From: Streptomyces sp. NBC_00271
GTDB taxonomy: Bacteria > Actinomycetota > Actinomycetes > Streptomycetales > Streptomycetaceae
Direction: 5' to 3'
Assembly: GCF_036178845.1 (NCBI RefSeq)
Contig: NZ_CP108070.1
Location: 9,610,001 to 9,674,000, forward strand
Length of the DNA stretch: 64,000 nt
Position 1 is the stretch's first letter. Each line of letters starts with the position of its first letter. Shown piece by piece: positions 8,328 to 14,066 of the stretch. The position numbers were made by a program, and so were the translations under genes. The notes under the pieces are model-generated. The model was not told the origin of the DNA and made no database searches. It saw nothing but the letters and a program-made list of their open reading frames with translations.

Positions 8328-11300
8328 ATGCACGACGAACGCCGCCGGATCGAGGAGCGCGTCGCACGCGTCCACGACCAGCGCATCAAGCCCGCGATCT
8401 ACGCCGCCTCGGTGCCCTTCGAGGTCGAGGCCTGGCAGGCGCCCGGCGAGCCGGTCCCCTTCGAGGAGGCCGCCGCGGCGCCGTACAAGCCCTTCGCGAT
8501 GGACACCCCCTGGGGTCCGCCGTGGGGCACCACCTGGTTCCGGATGCGCGGCTCGGTTCCCGCGGACTGGACGGGCAAGCGCGTCGAGGCCGTCTTCGAC
8601 CTCGGCTTCGTGGGCGACTGGCCCGGCAACCAGGCCGAGGCGCTCGTCCACCTCCCGGACGGGGTCCCGCTGAAGGCGGTCAACCCGCAGAACCAGTACG
8701 TGCCGATCGCCCACCCGGCCGCGGGCGGCGAGGAGATCCACTACCTGGTCGAGGCGGCCTCCAACCCCGACATCCTTGCCAACGACTTCGCGGGCCCGAC
8801 CCCGCTCGGCGACCGCCTCACCGCCGGTGACAAGCCGCTCTACACCTTCAAGCGCGCCGACATCGCCGTCCTCGACGAGAACGTCTGGCACCTCGACCTC
8901 GACGTCCAGGTGCTGCGCGAGCTGATGCTGGAGCTGGGCGAGCTCGACCCGCGCCGCCACGAGATCATGATCGCGCTGGACCAGGCGATGGACGCCCTCG
9001 ACCTGGACGACATCTCCGGGACGGCCGCCGCCGCCCGCGCGGTGCTGGCCCCCACCCTGGCCAAGCCCGCGCACGCCAGCGCCCACACCCTCTCCGCGGC
9101 CGGGCACGCGCACATCGACTCCGCCTGGCTGTGGCCGATCCGCGAGACCAAGCGCAAGACCTCCCGCACCTTCTCGAACGTCACCGCGCTCGCCGAGGAG
9201 TACGAGGAGCTGGTCTTCGCCTGCTCGCAGGCCCAGCAGTACGAGTGGGTGCGCGACAACTACCCGCACGTGTGGGAGCGCATCAAGAAGGCCGTCGCCG
9301 ACGGGAACTGGGCCCCGGTCGGCGGGATGTGGGTGGAGGCCGACGGCAACCTGCCCGGCGGCGAGGCGCTGGCCCGCCAGCTCATCCACGGCAAGCGGTT
9401 CTTCATCGAGCACTTCGGCATCGAGACCAAGGGCGTCTGGCTGCCGGACTCCTTCGGCTACAACGCGGCCTACCCGCAGCTCGCCAAGCTCGCCGGCAAC
9501 GACTGGTTCCTGACCCAGAAGCTCTCCTGGAACCAGACCAACAAGCTGCCCCACCACAGCTTCTGGTGGGAGGGCCTCGACGGCACCCGCATCTTCACGC
9601 ACTTCCCGCCCGTCGACACCTACAACGTCGAGTTCTCCGGCAAGGAGATGGCGCACGCCGTCCGCAACTACCAGGACAAGGGCCGCGGTACGACCTCGCT
9701 GGCCCCCTTCGGCCACGGTGACGGCGGTGGCGGCCCCACCCGCGAGATGATGGAACGCGCCCGCCGGCTGGCGAGCCTGGAGGGTTCGGCGAAGGTCAGG
9801 GTCGAGCACCCGGACGCCTTCTTCGCCACCGCCCGCGAGGAGATCCCCCAGGACCAGGTCTGGTCCGGTGAGCTGTACTTGGAGCTGCACCGCGCCACCT
9901 ACACCTCGCAGGCCCGCACCAAGCAGGGCAACCGGCGCAGCGAACACCGCATGCGCGAGGCCGAGTTGTGGGCGACCACCGCCGCCGTGAACGCGCCGGG
10001 CTACTCCTACCCGTACGAGAAGCTCGACCGGCTCTGGAAGACGGTCCTGCTCCACCAGTTCCACGACATCCTGCCCGGTTCGTCCATCGCCTGGGTGCAC
10101 CGGGAGGCCGAGGCGGAGTACGCGCGGGTGGCCAAGGAGGTCGAGGCGATCACGGCCGAGGCCGTGGCCGCGCTGGGCACGGGCGAGACCCGGGTGTTCA
10201 ACACCAGCCCGGTCGACCGCGCCGAGGTGGTCCGCACCTCCGTCGGCATCCCGATGTACGCCGAAGTCCCCGCGGGCGGCAGCGCGTTGCTCGACGCGGC
10301 TGAGCCCCCGCGGCCGGTGACCGTCGAAGGCCGCGTCCTCGACAACGGCCTGGTCCGCGTCGAGCTGGCCGAGGACGGCACACTGACCTCCGTACGCGAC
10401 CTGACGGCCGACCGTGAGGTCCTCGCCGACAAGGGCAACCTGCTCCGTCTGCACAGCGACCTCCCGAACTACTGGGACGCCTGGGACATCGACAAGCACT
10501 ACAAGAACCGCTACACGGACCTGCTCGACGCCGAGTCCGTCACGGTCGTCGAGGACGGCCCGCTGCTCGGCGCGCTGAAGGTGGAGCGCGCCTTCGGCAA
10601 GGGCTCCCGGATCGTCCAGACGATCACCGTGCGGGCCGGCAGCCGCCGGATCGACGTCGAGACCGAGATCGACTGGCACGAGGCGGAGAAGATCCTCAAG
10701 GCGGCCTTCCCGGTCGACATCCGGGCCCCGCACTCCTCCGCGGAGATCCAGTTCGGCCATGTCCAGCGGCCCACGCACACCAACACCAGCTGGGAGTCGG
10801 CCCGCTTCGAGGTCTACGGCCACCGCTGGGTGCACATCGCCGAGCCCGGCTACGGCGTCGCGGTCATCAACGACTCGACGTACGGCCACGACGTCTCCCG
10901 CACGGTCCGCGAGGACGGCGGTACGACCACGACCGTACGCCTGTCCCTCGTGCGCGCCCCGCGGGTGCCGGACCCCGAGGCCGACCAGGGCAAGCACCGC
11001 TTCACCTACGCGCTGCTGCCGGGTGCGAGCATCGAGGACGCGATCGCGGAGGGCTACGCGCTCAACCTGCCGCTGCGGGTGGCGGATTCGGCCGGTCCGG
11101 CCGAGCCCGTCGTCTCCGTCGACGGGGAGGGCGTGACCATCGAGGCGGTCAAGCTCGCCGACGACGCCTCGGGCGATGTCGTCGTACGCCTCTACGAGTC
11201 CCGCGGCGGTCGCGGCACCGGCACCCTGCGCACCGGCTTCCCGCTCGCGGGGGCCCAGGTGACCGACCTCCTGGAGCGCCCGCTGACCACGGCCGACACG

Positions 11301-11375
11301 GACGGGAACACGGTTGCGGTCGTGCTGCGCCCCTTCGAGGTGCGGACGCTGCGGCTGGCCGTGGCGAAGGCGTGA
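8328..11375 (+). CDS. GH38 alpha-mannosidase
   Basis: Glycoside hydrolase family 38 retaining alpha-mannosidase, 1015 aa, the usual length. The N-terminal GH38 domain contains the zinc-site motif GHAHIDSAWLWPIRETKRK near residue 260 and the nucleophile-region motif WLPDSFGYN near residue 370. The middle domain and C-terminal beta-sandwich follow. No signal peptide is seen, so it should act in the cytoplasm on imported mannosides. A CTGGAG ribosome site lies 7 bases before the ATG. With GH2 and GH4 neighbours it completes a glycan-dismantling set and is probably part of the deoR-GH4 operon. Confidence 0.93.
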   Translation: MHDERRRIEERVARVHDQRIKPAIYAASVPFEVEAWQAPGEPVPFEEAAAAPYKPFAMDTPWGPPWGTTWFRMRGSVPADWTGKRVEAVFDLGFVGDWPGNQAEALVHLPDGVPLKAVNPQNQYVPIAHPAAGGEEIHYLVEAASNPDILANDFAGPTPLGDRLTAGDKPLYTFKRADIAVLDENVWHLDLDVQVLRELMLELGELDPRRHEIMIALDQAMDALDLDDISGTAAAARAVLAPTLAKPAHASAHTLSAAGHAHIDSAWLWPIRETKRKTSRTFSNVTALAEEYEELVFACSQAQQYEWVRDNYPHVWERIKKAVADGNWAPVGGMWVEADGNLPGGEALARQLIHGKRFFIEHFGIETKGVWLPDSFGYNAAYPQLAKLAGNDWFLTQKLSWNQTNKLPHHSFWWEGLDGTRIFTHFPPVDTYNVEFSGKEMAHAVRNYQDKGRGTTSLAPFGHGDGGGGPTREMMERARRLASLEGSAKVRVEHPDAFFATAREEIPQDQVWSGELYLELHRATYTSQARTKQGNRRSEHRMREAELWATTAAVNAPGYSYPYEKLDRLWKTVLLHQFHDILPGSSIAWVHREAEAEYARVAKEVEAITAEAVAALGTGETRVFNTSPVDRAEVVRTSVGIPMYAEVPAGGSALLDAAEPPRPVTVEGRVLDNGLVRVELAEDGTLTSVRDLTADREVLADKGNLLRLHSDLPNYWDAWDIDKHYKNRYTDLLDAESVTVVEDGPLLGALKVERAFGKGSRIVQTITVRAGSRRIDVETEIDWHEAEKILKAAFPVDIRAPHSSAEIQFGHVQRPTHTNTSWESARFEVYGHRWVHIAEPGYGVAVINDSTYGHDVSRTVREDGGTTTTVRLSLVRAPRVPDPEADQGKHRFTYALLPGASIEDAIAEGYALNLPLRVADSAGPAEPVVSVDGEGVTIEAVKLADDASGDVVVRLYESRGGRGTGTLRTGFPLAGAQVTDLLERPLTTADTDGNTVAVVLRPFEVRTLRLAVAKA

Positions 11376-11416
11376 CCCCAGTTTCCATGAAGTATTAAGG
11401 AAACGGTAAAGAGCCT

Positions 11417-11447
11417 GGTCACGGCGGGTTTCTCGCCCGCCGTGACC
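11417..11447 (+). terminator. Hairpin terminator after the alpha-mannosidase gene
   Basis: Perfect 12-bp arms GGTCACGGCGGG (11417-11428) and CCCGCCGTGACC (11436-11447) with a 7-nt loop, 42 bases after the stop. There is no strong T-tract, as is common for Streptomyces terminators. Confidence 0.75.
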
Positions 11448-11526
11448 ACGGCGCTTCTTCTGCGCGACACCTGGAGTTCGCCCTTACCCCTTGTGATGCG
11501 GGGACCCGCGAGAAAGAGGTGTCACG

Positions 11527-12030
11527 GTGCGAGACCCGCGCATGTCCGCGATCGGCAAGGGACTGAAGCGCCGGGGGAGGCTGATGGCGGAGGCGGTGCG
11601 CCCGCCGCGGCGAATCCTCGACGGGGTGCCGTCGCCCCGGAGCCCCGAGGGCACCGACGGCCTGCCGTACGTCGCCCCGCCCGCCCCGCGGCTGGTGGAC
11701 TCGCCCGTCTTCGTGCTCTCGTCCGTGCGCTCCGGCTCGACCCTGCTGCGGGTCCTGCTCAACAGCCACAGCCAGATCCGCGCCCCGCACGAGATGCATC
11801 TGCGCACCGTCCACGTCCACTTGTCGCGGGACTTCACCGCGGAGGCCATGCGGGCCCTCGAACTCGACAAGGACGAGCTGGAGCACGCCCTGTGGGACCG
11901 GCTGCTGCACCTCGAACTCACCCGCAGCGGCAAGCGGATCATCGTCGACAAGACCTCGCCGAACACCCTCGTCTGGCCCCGCCTGCACCGATGTTGGCCC
12001 AGCGCCCGCTATCGAACTCTTGCCCATTGA
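11527..12030 (+). pseudogene. Sulfotransferase-family gene, 5' half only, interrupted by an insertion remnant
   Basis: The open frame gives 167 aa resembling the N-terminal half of PAPS-dependent sulfotransferases. The cofactor-binding P-loop [18 protein letters not shown] is followed by [12 protein letters not shown], and later [23 protein letters not shown]. Family members then continue with a conserved segment like IVLLRHP and about 150 more residues. Here the frame goes off after SARY and stops. The missing continuation (IVLLRLPATGA) appears at 12283, just past the mobile-element end. The C-terminal half is absent, so the gene is almost certainly non-functional. The GTG start follows AGAGGTG. 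Confidence 0.75.
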
Positions 12031-12282
12031 TGCGACCTTCAGGGTGGCGGTGTGGGGCATCCGGCCTGTAGCGGCCCGGGAGTCCGCGGCTCCAGGCTAT
12101 TGTCGTCGTGTCCGACACCGAGGTGTCGGACCTACCGCCGGACGGGCGGGAAGTCAGGCCTGCGGAGGCCTTGTAAGACCGACCCTCACCAGTCGGCAGG
12201 GCCCGTGAAACAGGAACCCAAGGTGGTACCGCGTAGCGGTACGGACCGGAATCCCCTGCCCCCGGGCAGGAGAGGGCGTCAA
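12013..12282 (+). mobile_element. Miniature IS200/IS605-type remnant (tnpB tail plus right end)
   Basis: A segment of about 270 bp splits the sulfotransferase reading frame: codons end at SARY (12012) and resume at ATCGTGCTG (12283). Its 3' part matches the right end I know from Streptomyces tnpB elements: an in-frame tail from VKQEPK to GRRGRQ (12205-12282), a final hairpin CCTGCC/GGCAGG (12255-12260 and 12265-12270), and a terminal GTCAA. A perfect 10-bp inverted repeat (12110-12119 and 12122-12131) lies inside. Neither transposase nor TnpB catalytic core is present. The left border is uncertain; a TTGAT at 12027-12031 could mark an alternative left edge. Confidence 0.6.
12130..12282 (+). 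ncRNA. Orphan omega-RNA-like (TnpB guide RNA) scaffold, boundaries approximate
   Basis: In TnpB elements the guide RNA is made from the 3' end of tnpB and the right end, and its guide is the flanking DNA. This segment has the expected features: hairpin GTACCGC-GTA-GCGGTAC (12226-12242), the terminal hairpin at 12255-12270 and a 3' TCAA at 12279-12282. If transcribed, the guide would start at 12283 (ATCGTGCTGCTGCGCC), within the sulfotransferase remnant. Function would require a TnpB encoded elsewhere. The 5' end is a guess and expression is unknown. Confidence 0.4.
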
Positions 12283-12318
12283 ATCGTGCTGCTGCGCCTC
12301 CCGGCGACTGGAGCGACA

Positions 12319-12359
12319 CGTGGGGGTACCCGACCGTCTGACGGCCGGATACCCCCACG
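12319..12359. terminator. Bidirectional hairpin terminator before the chitinase 3' end
   Basis: Perfect 10-bp arms CGTGGGGGTA (12319-12328) and TACCCCCACG (12350-12359) with a partly paired interior. It lies 10 bases past the chitinase stop and could serve transcripts from both sides. Confidence 0.75.
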
Positions 12360-12368
12360 CCGGGAGCG

Positions 12369-14066
12369 TCAGCCGGTGAACCCGGCCGTGATGGAGGTGA
12401 ACTGCCAGTTGTTCTGGCTGATGCCGGAGCAGTTGCTCACCACGCCGCCGCCGGGGCAGGGCCGGTCACGGTTGACCGCCCAGTAGGCGAGACGGGCGAT
12501 GTGGTGGGAGTTCGCCCAGTCGCGGATCGAAGTCCAGATCGCCGGGGTGGTGTTCTCCTGCTGGTCGGACAGACCGTTCATGCCGGAGATGCCGATGTGG
12601 GAGTAGGCCGTGGCGTCGTCCCAGCCGAAGGTGGACTTCAGCTTGGCCTTCAGCCCCTCGGCGGCGTTGACGGTGTTGCCGTACATGTCCGAGCCGCCGC
12701 CGAAGTCGAACGGCATGATCGTGAAGACGTCGATGCCCGCGTTCAGCGACTGCGCCTGCTCGATGAGCCGGTTGCCGTAGTAGGTCGGTCCGGTCGTCGA
12801 GGTGCCGAAGGTGACGATCGTCTTCAGGCCCGGGTTGTTGGCCTTGACGGTCTTCAGCGCGGTAAGGATCTTGGCCTGGACGGCCTCGTTCTCGAACTCG
12901 TCCGTGTTCTCGATGTCCATGTCGATCGCCTTGAGCCCGTAGGCGTCGATGACCTTCTGGAGCGCACCGGCGAGCGCGCTCGCCGAGGAGCAGTTGGCCC
13001 CGAGCTTGCTGCCCTGCCAGCCGCCGAACGATGGGACGATGTCACCGCCGGCGGAGCGGATCTGGTTGATGACGGTCTGGTCGTTGCCACCGGTGAGCGC
13101 CCTGCTGCCGTCCCAGGCGGGGTTGCAGCCGCCCGAGTCCAGCATGAACGCCATCGTGAACCACTTGACGCCGGTCGAGCTCATCACCGAGGTCGCGCTC
13201 GGCGGGTCGCCCCAGCCGAGGTAGAGGTACGGCGCCGCCTGCTTGAAGCCGGTGCCGCCGCCACCGCCCGCGTTCGTGGTCACGGACACGGAGTTGGAGG
13301 CCCCGGAGGTGTTCCCGGCCGCGTCCCGCGCCTTCACCGTGAACGTGTAGGCGGTGCTCGACGAGAGACCGCTGACCGTCGCGCTCGTCCCCGAGACGCT
13401 CAGCACCTGGTTCGAGCCGCTGTAGATGTCGTACGCGGTGACGCCCACGTTGTCGCTCGAGGCGCCCCACGACAGGGACACGCTGGAGGAGGTCTTGCCG
13501 GTGGAGGTCAGGTTCGTCGGCGCGGTCGGCGCCTGGGTGTCGGAGCCGCCTCCGCCGCCCGGACCGTCCAGGCTGATGTCGTCGGCGTAGTAGGTGCCCT
13601 GCGCGTACCAGCCGTGGACGTAGATCTTGGCGCTGGTCTGCGAGGCGCCGGTCGTGAAGGAGACGCTGAGCTGGCTGTACGCCGACGGGGACGTCGTCCA
13701 GGTCGAAGCACCGCCGTCCACGCCCAGGTACACGTAACTGCCGCGCACCCAGCCCGAGAGGCTGTACGTGGTGTTCGGCTGGACCGAGACGGTCTGGCTG
13801 CACTGGGCGTTGTCACTCGAACTCACCGCCCCGGCCAGGGCCTTGGAGCCGCTGTGCACGGGGCTGGAGACGACCGAGCCGAGGTTCCCGGTGCACGACC
13901 AGGGGGAGAGGCTGCCCGACTCGAGGCCGGGGTTGGACAGGATGTTGGCCGCCTGGGCCGTGGTGGGCAGCGCGACCGCCCCGGCCAGCGCCAGGGCGGC
14001 GGTGCCGAGCAGTGCGAGGACGCGATGTCTGGAACGCCTGAGGTCTGTTCTGAGGTTGATGCGCAC
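12369..14066 (-). CDS. Secreted GH18 chitinase with carbohydrate-binding and FnIII domains
   Basis: Extracellular chitinase of 565 aa. The GTG at 14066 has a GGGAG site eight bases upstream. Domain order: signal peptide (arginine-rich, then LLGTAALALAGAVALPTTAQA, about 1-40), a jelly-roll carbohydrate-binding module (NILSNPGLESGSLSPW, about 42-175), a fibronectin type III domain after a glycine linker (APTAPTNLTSTGKTSSS), a second glycine linker, and the GH18 barrel (from YLYLGWGDPPS). The catalytic motif reads AIDMDIEN, with the glutamate as acid. It degrades chitin outside the cell. Paired operator-like repeats overlap its promoter. Confidence 0.93.
   Translation of the reverse strand: MRINLRTDLRRSRHRVLALLGTAALALAGAVALPTTAQAANILSNPGLESGSLSPWSCTGNLGSVVSSPVHSGSKALAGAVSSSDNAQCSQTVSVQPNTTYSLSGWVRGSYVYLGVDGGASTWTTSPSAYSQLSVSFTTGASQTSAKIYVHGWYAQGTYYADDISLDGPGGGGGSDTQAPTAPTNLTSTGKTSSSVSLSWGASSDNVGVTAYDIYSGSNQVLSVSGTSATVSGLSSSTAYTFTVKARDAAGNTSGASNSVSVTTNAGGGGGTGFKQAAPYLYLGWGDPPSATSVMSSTGVKWFTMAFMLDSGGCNPAWDGSRALTGGNDQTVINQIRSAGGDIVPSFGGWQGSKLGANCSSASALAGALQKVIDAYGLKAIDMDIENTDEFENEAVQAKILTALKTVKANNPGLKTIVTFGTSTTGPTYYGNRLIEQAQSLNAGIDVFTIMPFDFGGGSDMYGNTVNAAEGLKAKLKSTFGWDDATAYSHIGISGMNGLSDQQENTTPAIWTSIRDWANSHHIARLAYWAVNRDRPCPGGGVVSNCSGISQNNWQFTSITAGFTG

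Follow-up and report, generated by a model that had tools for sequence, protein, structure and literature searches.

The DNA analyzed here, referred to below as the window, is a 64,000-nucleotide stretch of the genome of Streptomyces sp. NBC_00271 (contig NZ_CP108070.1, positions 9,610,001 to 9,674,000; coordinates without further label are window positions). Its forward strand holds the 5′ part of a sulfotransferase gene (11527-12012), which matches the Pfam family Sulfotransfer_3 (PF13469; E 6.8e-12) and is broken after a Tyr codon, TAT (12010-12012). Between this codon and an ATCGTG at 12283 sits a 270-bp insert on the same strand (12013-12282), which we delimited as one mini-element by end-to-end alignment with its relatives and by comparison with intact homologues of the gene. 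The insert has no gene of its own and appears to consist of two IS200/IS605-type ends and a complete scaffold for the guide RNA (omega-RNA) of TnpB.

The sulfotransferase homologues, which are at most 91% identical to the window gene and have a longer open frame, fixed the site of insertion. In L034-L037 (L, G and C numbers are our handles for loci, genomes and contigs) the junction is uninterrupted and reads ..CGCTAC|ATCGT.. (protein NARY|IVLLRHP); L036 and L037 read ..GCCCGCTAC|ATCGTGCTGCTGCGCC.. at the insertion point, and L034 and L035 are alike with a few changes. Because these homologues read straight through the junction, the insertion is exact and without target duplication, a point checked at two loci: the window against its homologues, and L025, which proved to be a clean insertion when read by hand. 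An initial annotation, made from the window sequence alone, had placed the insert at 12013-12282 with a GTCAA terminus and had expected intact sulfotransferases to continue with IVLLRxP after SARY; bounds and terminus are exact, and L034-L037 continue with IVLLRHP after NARY. GCTAT (12008-12012) is the apparent insertion target and the expected transposon-associated motif (TAM) of a cognate TnpB, judging from the GCTA(C/T) found 5′ of the family copies described below; GCTAC or GCTAT also occupies the insertion point in 14 of 17 printed homologues (exceptions: L039, L041 and L045). The predicted guide, the first 16-20 nucleotides past the right end (12283-12302, forward strand), is a remnant of the sulfotransferase gene, as the intact homologues reveal. 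Its first 16 nucleotides match L036 and L037 at 16/16 positions, both with GCTAC in front, and the putative guide is thereby encoded just past the right end and adjoins the presumed TAM in the empty allele.

The initial annotation was right that removing the insert restores the expected order of SARY and IVLLRLP, but excision would not restore the gene, because further deletions of ~256 and ~84 bp lie downstream. The sequence GGCGACTGGAG occurs 276 nucleotides past the junction in L034-L037 and L046 and 20 nucleotides past the element in the window, and a TGGGG(G/C)TA motif occurs at 378 and 38 nucleotides, respectively, from which the two deletions were sized (L034, L035, L036, L037 and L046 were used; the search word is missing from L042 and L044). 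The larger deletion begins 20-24 nucleotides after the element, so that 12283-12302 is the only part of the gene kept before it. What remains of the 3′ end of the gene, as placed by the homologue distances, is 12302-12341 on the forward strand, with the junction of the ~256-bp deletion at 12302-12306.

The gene-free family

A 306-bp query gave matches in 64 of 392 Streptomyces genomes (E<=0.001), many of them spanning query positions 9-14 to 288, which is the exact element, and 21 oriented copies could be aligned end to end. Scanning a species-genome collection for the left-end pattern retrieved 21 stretches, all from Streptomyces and all preceded by GCTAC (shifted by one base in one of them). 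No TnpB match lies inside the element at these 21 loci, and at the 32 loci of the sequence searches the sole TnpB-like trace was a 62-amino-acid stretch in L002/L003. From these sources we extracted 54 distinct full-length copies, 264-280 bp long apart from two of 307 and 311 bp, with a different 20-nucleotide 3′ flank in every case (54/54). The 5′ flank is GCTAC in 39 copies and GCTAT in 5 (44/54 together); two CTACC flanks, which are GCTAC shifted by one base, were kept out of this count. Four copies in S. humidus are 99.3-100% identical despite different flanks, and those in S. colonosanans are 97.1-98.6% identical; movement in these species was therefore recent. No other collected copy exceeds 86% identity to the one in the window.

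Given its IS200/IS605-type ends, we class the mini-element, on sequence grounds, as an IS200/IS605-type palindrome-associated transposable element (PATE). It has a fixed short target 5′ of the insertion without duplication, it lacks a transposase gene, and it has subterminal palindromes at both ends, the left hairpin being seen in relatives and the right one being intact. This supports the view of the initial annotation that the insert derives, in miniature form, from an IS200/IS605 element and carries an orphan omega-RNA for which the disrupted gene would serve as guide. Two features had escaped that annotation, a 5′ hairpin at 12110-12131 and the left end itself (12013-12061, forward strand), which the alignment of relatives places around a subterminal hairpin at 12030-12049. 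The left arm of the latter has decayed in the window (ATGCGACC vs CTCCACCC in relatives). The window copy departs from the consensus at 8/46 left-end columns (L016, at 11/48, and L022, at 10/48, are no better), at 5/119 columns of the omega core and at 2/32 columns of the right-end hairpin.

The proposal that the element keeps the tail of tnpB in frame did not hold for the window copy: the TnpB-like frame, ..GPTAGRAGSQACGGLVRPTLTSRQGP* (open reading frame 12020-12208), ends within the element, and the peptide PVKQEPKVVP lies in a different frame. Across the 54 copies this frame stops before the right end in 20, is open in 26 and has no anchor in 8. We disfavor the idea that the conserved block codes for a TnpB C terminus, given the stop in 20 of 46 anchored copies and the varying lengths (26/46 being open).

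Two further properties of the copies were recorded. L012 and L024 share an extra palindromic stretch of ~35-40 bp (GGGGGTCCCCC..AGCGAAGC..GGGGGAG) at the same position in the omega core. At 23 of the 54 copies, a gene on the opposite strand (an open frame rich in G and C at third codon positions) seems to run into the right end; in 18 of these 23 the frame is the same, namely the one that places the gene's own stop, TAG, inside GTAGC, the target reversed. The TTGA tail of the element offers such a gene an in-frame TGA, so that insertion apparently replaces one stop by another.

The omega-RNA scaffold and its counterparts at tnpB genes

The predicted scaffold occupies 12133-12282 of the forward strand, with helices at 12135-12149, 12159-12214, 12177-12197, 12226-12242, 12244-12280 and 12252-12273. 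Its right-end hairpin, aligned across copies, closes with the terminal GTCAA (12252-12282), an end common to tnpB elements. The two hairpins predicted earlier (12226-12242 and 12255-12270) are present, and compensatory changes in relatives keep them paired. RNAalifold, run on 26 right-end regions, gave 45 pairs with 96.7% of cells paired; double changes affected 16 pairs (8.4 in shuffles) and 61 cells (18.6 in shuffles), and none of 500 shuffles reached either value. On a tree of the 54 copies built from unpaired columns, Fitch counting placed 51 double changes in paired columns, compared to 0-5 when partners were slid. Twenty-eight of them fall in the right-end (RE) hairpin and 23 lie outside both RE helices (slid controls 0-4); with the true pairing, the same tree also holds 52 pair-breaking changes and 6 pair-restoring ones. 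Because double changes so exceed the slid controls, overall and outside the RE helices, the shape of the RNA seems to be kept in elements without tnpB. The omega cores of 52 mini-elements are monophyletic relative to 24 other sequences (support 0.83), with L173, which has no tnpB match, as sister; two nested-repeat copies were omitted from this comparison, and the 24 others include two loci without tnpB, L002 and L173. Together, these sequence comparisons suggest that the RNA structure has been preserved by selection after loss of tnpB. They speak for retention of shape and not for which protein reads the RNA.

The hairpin ahead of the omega core (12110-12131, forward strand) was recognized by its pairing in 19 copies. 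In these, 94.6% of cells are paired and 4 pairs show double changes; the hairpin covaries by 4 of 5 measures, the number of further pair types not being above shuffles (238/500). Looked for in gene-free copies, its stem reaches at least 9 bp in 36 of the 53 with a recognizable core.

To relate the scaffold to tnpB genes we built a covariance model, R1, exclusively from copies that lack tnpB. It scores 168 bits on the window, whose sequence is part of the model, and finds 14 places at E<=0.01 in the 12.28-Mb genome to which the window belongs: the window, 10 places adjoining tnpB, a degenerate locus and both terminal-repeat copies of a second gene-free element. Ten of the 14 begin 3-24 positions after a match to the TnpB zinc-ribbon (PF07282, 42 matches in this genome) and on the same strand. 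A blind test covered L002 and 22 of 30 fetched tnpB loci, with terminal-repeat copies and one near-copy omitted. Eight of the 22 (L071, L065, L070, L064, L066, L063, L068 and L067) had a full-length match at E<1e-8 at the tnpB 3′ end, the best being 1.8e-15, and the gene-free L002 also gave a full-length match below this threshold. A tenth match (E 4.7e-8, 39.9 bits) lies in the flank of L077, at L077:3010-3151 on the minus strand; it is absent from the list of the two-step genome search, which was not exhaustive. At the 3′ ends of the remaining 14 tnpB loci, R1 matched weakly or not at all. Lastly, tnpB runs into the scaffold at 15 of 16 chosen R1 places that we fetched, 15 from other genomes and one from this one. 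These matches show that the scaffold shares homology with the 3′-terminal region of tnpB elements, and this genome does contain tnpB genes whose right ends are of this kind, as the initial annotation would lead one to expect. A DNA-only search for tnpB near family members was unsuccessful; the covariance model succeeded.

The closest resemblance is to a set of resident genes that we call group B (L064, L065 and L070; 57-69 R1 bits), which have mini-like left ends, a GTCAA right end and the flanks GCAAC, GCTAC and GCTAC, respectively. Group C, with both tnpA and tnpB, comes from other genomes (L177, L179, L180, L181 and L187) and is flanked by GCTAC in four of five cases and by GCTAT in one. 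L065 matches the ISDra2 TnpB chains 8h1j and 8bf8 (E 2-3e-71), with a designed relative, 9yyg, ranking first (2.5e-82), and L065 and L070 both have three Pfam domains of the TnpB family. The group B proteins carry GIDLG, VEDL and HDRDHNAA, motifs that we take to be catalytic.

Other R1 loci differ from these groups. The second gene-free element of this genome, L002/L003 (C1:11677069-11677229 and 254886-255046; 58.9 bits), has one copy on each chromosome arm, a different left end and a flank that resembles group A tnpB elements. L131 (C1:9476484-9476631; 45.9 bits) lies behind a degenerate 3′ fragment of tnpB with a short tandem repeat. L172 and L175, which have tnpA and tnpB, have a left flank with TTAC, and their left hairpin is preceded by AAAG instead of the AGTG of the GCTAC group. 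The AAAG/TTAC pattern resembles that of IS608, and the target apparently varies in step with the guide motif.

TnpA matches were found in 15 of 17 carrier genomes; with the near-identical copies, they are consistent with mobilization in trans by a Y1 TnpA. The genome of the window has no TnpA match beside its group B tnpB genes, and the TnpA beside L071 was matched in two separate pieces. The window copy is probably no longer mobile, because its left end has decayed and no TnpA lies beside the GCTAC-type tnpB genes. No place in this genome has the target motif followed by the 16-nucleotide guide at up to two mismatches; six places do at three mismatches, the element's own flank among them.

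Proposed retention through a borrowed TnpB and other readings

We consider it probable that the mini-element is non-autonomous, that it holds a complete TnpB guide-RNA scaffold and both ends but no gene, and that it moves by a borrowed TnpA and is retained by a borrowed TnpB, its action in trans being what we infer. For its movement, a Y1 TnpA supplied in trans would have excised and inserted it as a single strand. The scaffold would be transcribed together with the first 16-20 nucleotides of the flanking gene; since the element and the broken gene share the same sense orientation, read-through could supply this transcript. The RNA would be loaded into a resident TnpB that recognizes GCTAC or GCTAT, the complex would cut the empty allele, and repair from the filled copy would retain the element. 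By analogy to ISDra2, the RNA of the window would carry ATCGTGCTGCTGCGCC.. and direct cutting of alleles fronted by GCTAC or GCTAT, such as those in L036 and L037. This guide could still act although the copy is probably immobile.

The question addressed here is whether a guide RNA can pay off for an element without a nuclease through a TnpB that acts in trans. In ordinary elements, selection on the RNA and selection on the coding sequence of tnpB overlap; a gene-free family whose guide-RNA structure is maintained through compensatory change allows the two to be told apart. Every copy has its own guide, and 44 of the 54 have the GCTAC/GCTAT motif; the prediction in trans is therefore testable with two plasmids.

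A further reading, which we hold tentatively and with somewhat less than even confidence, is that the copies are "guide-RNA parasites": stand-alone omega-RNAs with a 5′ hairpin of their own, selected for steering the TnpB of other transposons to empty sites and thus acting as a homing drive in trans. Within this reading the ~256-bp deletion in the window, which begins 20-24 nucleotides after the element, would be the repair scar of a TnpB cut; ISDra2 TnpB cleaves 15-21 bp from its TAM (PMC8612924). A frame-phase test of how general such deletions are put 5 of 14 loci in phase, with the junction one base off in some rows. L109 and L189 (homologues L208-L215 and L216-L223, respectively) have lost left-side host DNA between two GCTAC copies. 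One of these now flanks the left end; the other stands, in intact homologues, before the sequence found to the right of the element (for L109 in one of 8, the closest, L208; for L189 in five of 8). This looks like a left-side deletion that used a second target motif. At L115 a deletion of this kind is only predicted, and a Pfam scan of one fragment of that locus was empty. Because L025 is clean and L109 and L189 are deleted on the left side, the deletion in the window remains without a second example.

Several observations weigh against retention by a borrowed TnpB. Resident tnpB scaffolds score 30-71 R1 bits, compared to 168 for the window, and thus include no close cognate, although R1, being built on mini-elements, favors mini-elements. 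Two carriers, G306 and G215, have no TnpA match, and G215 has no further R1 match either (one of the 17 carriers). Eight of the 54 copies lack a GCTA(C/T) 5′ flank even when a one-base shift is allowed. Of the 46 anchored copies, 26 have a TnpB-like frame without a stop before the right end; release from coding constraint is thus evident in the 20 copies with a stop, and from length variation, but not in all. The window's omega core is closer to the consensus than its left end, but many other copies do not show this contrast, which therefore cannot serve as a general argument. The ~256-bp deletion has been seen once, and the deletions at two other loci are of a different type. As to structure, a double change on one branch may conceal two steps, the 26 sequences behind the tested fold mostly belong to the 54, and paired changes could enter from tnpB elements by recombination. 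Positions 11000-13500 have no Rfam match at E<=1, and the single-sequence fold of 12100-12302 beats shuffles only mildly (z -1.70; 9 of 200 at least as good).

The structural evidence also bears on the view that the element is a plain PATE, in which only the two ends matter, TnpA acts in trans, and the scaffold is inherited ballast whose structure reflects what transposition requires of single-stranded DNA. Gene-free PATEs related to IS605-type elements are described (PMC3119063), and the TnpA matches in 15 of 17 carriers fit this view, as do the 28 of 51 double changes held by the RE hairpin, which transposition would need anyway, and the left ends, which in many copies are as well conserved as the omega core. 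Against it stand the 23 double changes in helices outside the RE helices and the linker between the ends, which departs from the consensus more than the omega core does in 16 of 19 copies. We know of no role for the outside helices in single-strand transposition, and regard a plain PATE as unlikely.

Decay of the left hairpin arm, two further deletions in the host gene and the lack of TnpA next to the GCTAC-type tnpB genes of this genome would all suit a dead relic, an inactive IS605 fragment rotting in a pseudogene. This is very unlikely in view of a unit dispersed with sharp ends, of near-identical multi-copy sets in other species, and of an omega core (5/119) and right-end hairpin (2/32) that stay near the consensus in the window itself. 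Even less probable is co-option of the RNA, either as an attenuator or as guide for a nuclease-dead, TldR-like repressor, a class of proteins that arose from TnpB: the guides differ in 54 of 54 copies, and the resident group B TnpBs retain RuvC motifs.

Comparison with known systems

No stand-alone TnpB guide in PATEs is described in the literature that we surveyed, and use in trans may have an earlier precedent; Meers et al. 2023 reportedly mention non-autonomous elements. Among the elements collected here, the tnpB elements of groups B and C share with the mini-element the GCTAC-type target (in 2 of 3 group B elements and in all 5 of group C, one of them with GCTAT), a similar left end, GTCAA and an R1-matching scaffold, and differ from it in carrying protein genes. 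In ISDra2, the DNA that follows the right end serves as guide, TAM and insertion target are identical, and cleavage falls 15-21 bp from the TAM (PMC8612924). The mini-element is alike in having its scaffold at the right end, a guide from flanking DNA and a TAM that is the transposition target; unlike ISDra2, it has no tnpB, its motif is GCTAC/GCTAT rather than TTGAT, and the enzyme would act in trans.

The benefit proposed for the mini-element is the same as that of the TnpB gene drive of IS200/IS605 elements in plasmids, where cutting of the empty site favors the filled copy (PMC11870625). There, TnpB belongs to the element, and the terms "in trans", "PATE" and "orphan" are absent from the text of that paper. 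The IS605-type PATEs of Haloquadratum (PMC3119063) resemble the mini-element in being gene-free and IS605-related, in their near-terminal palindromes, in the lack of target duplication and in forming homogeneous families. The passages of that paper on PATEs mention no guide RNA, and the mini-element differs in holding a full omega-RNA scaffold with compensatory change between its ends. What it appears to add to the description of PATEs is a guide-RNA scaffold under selection.
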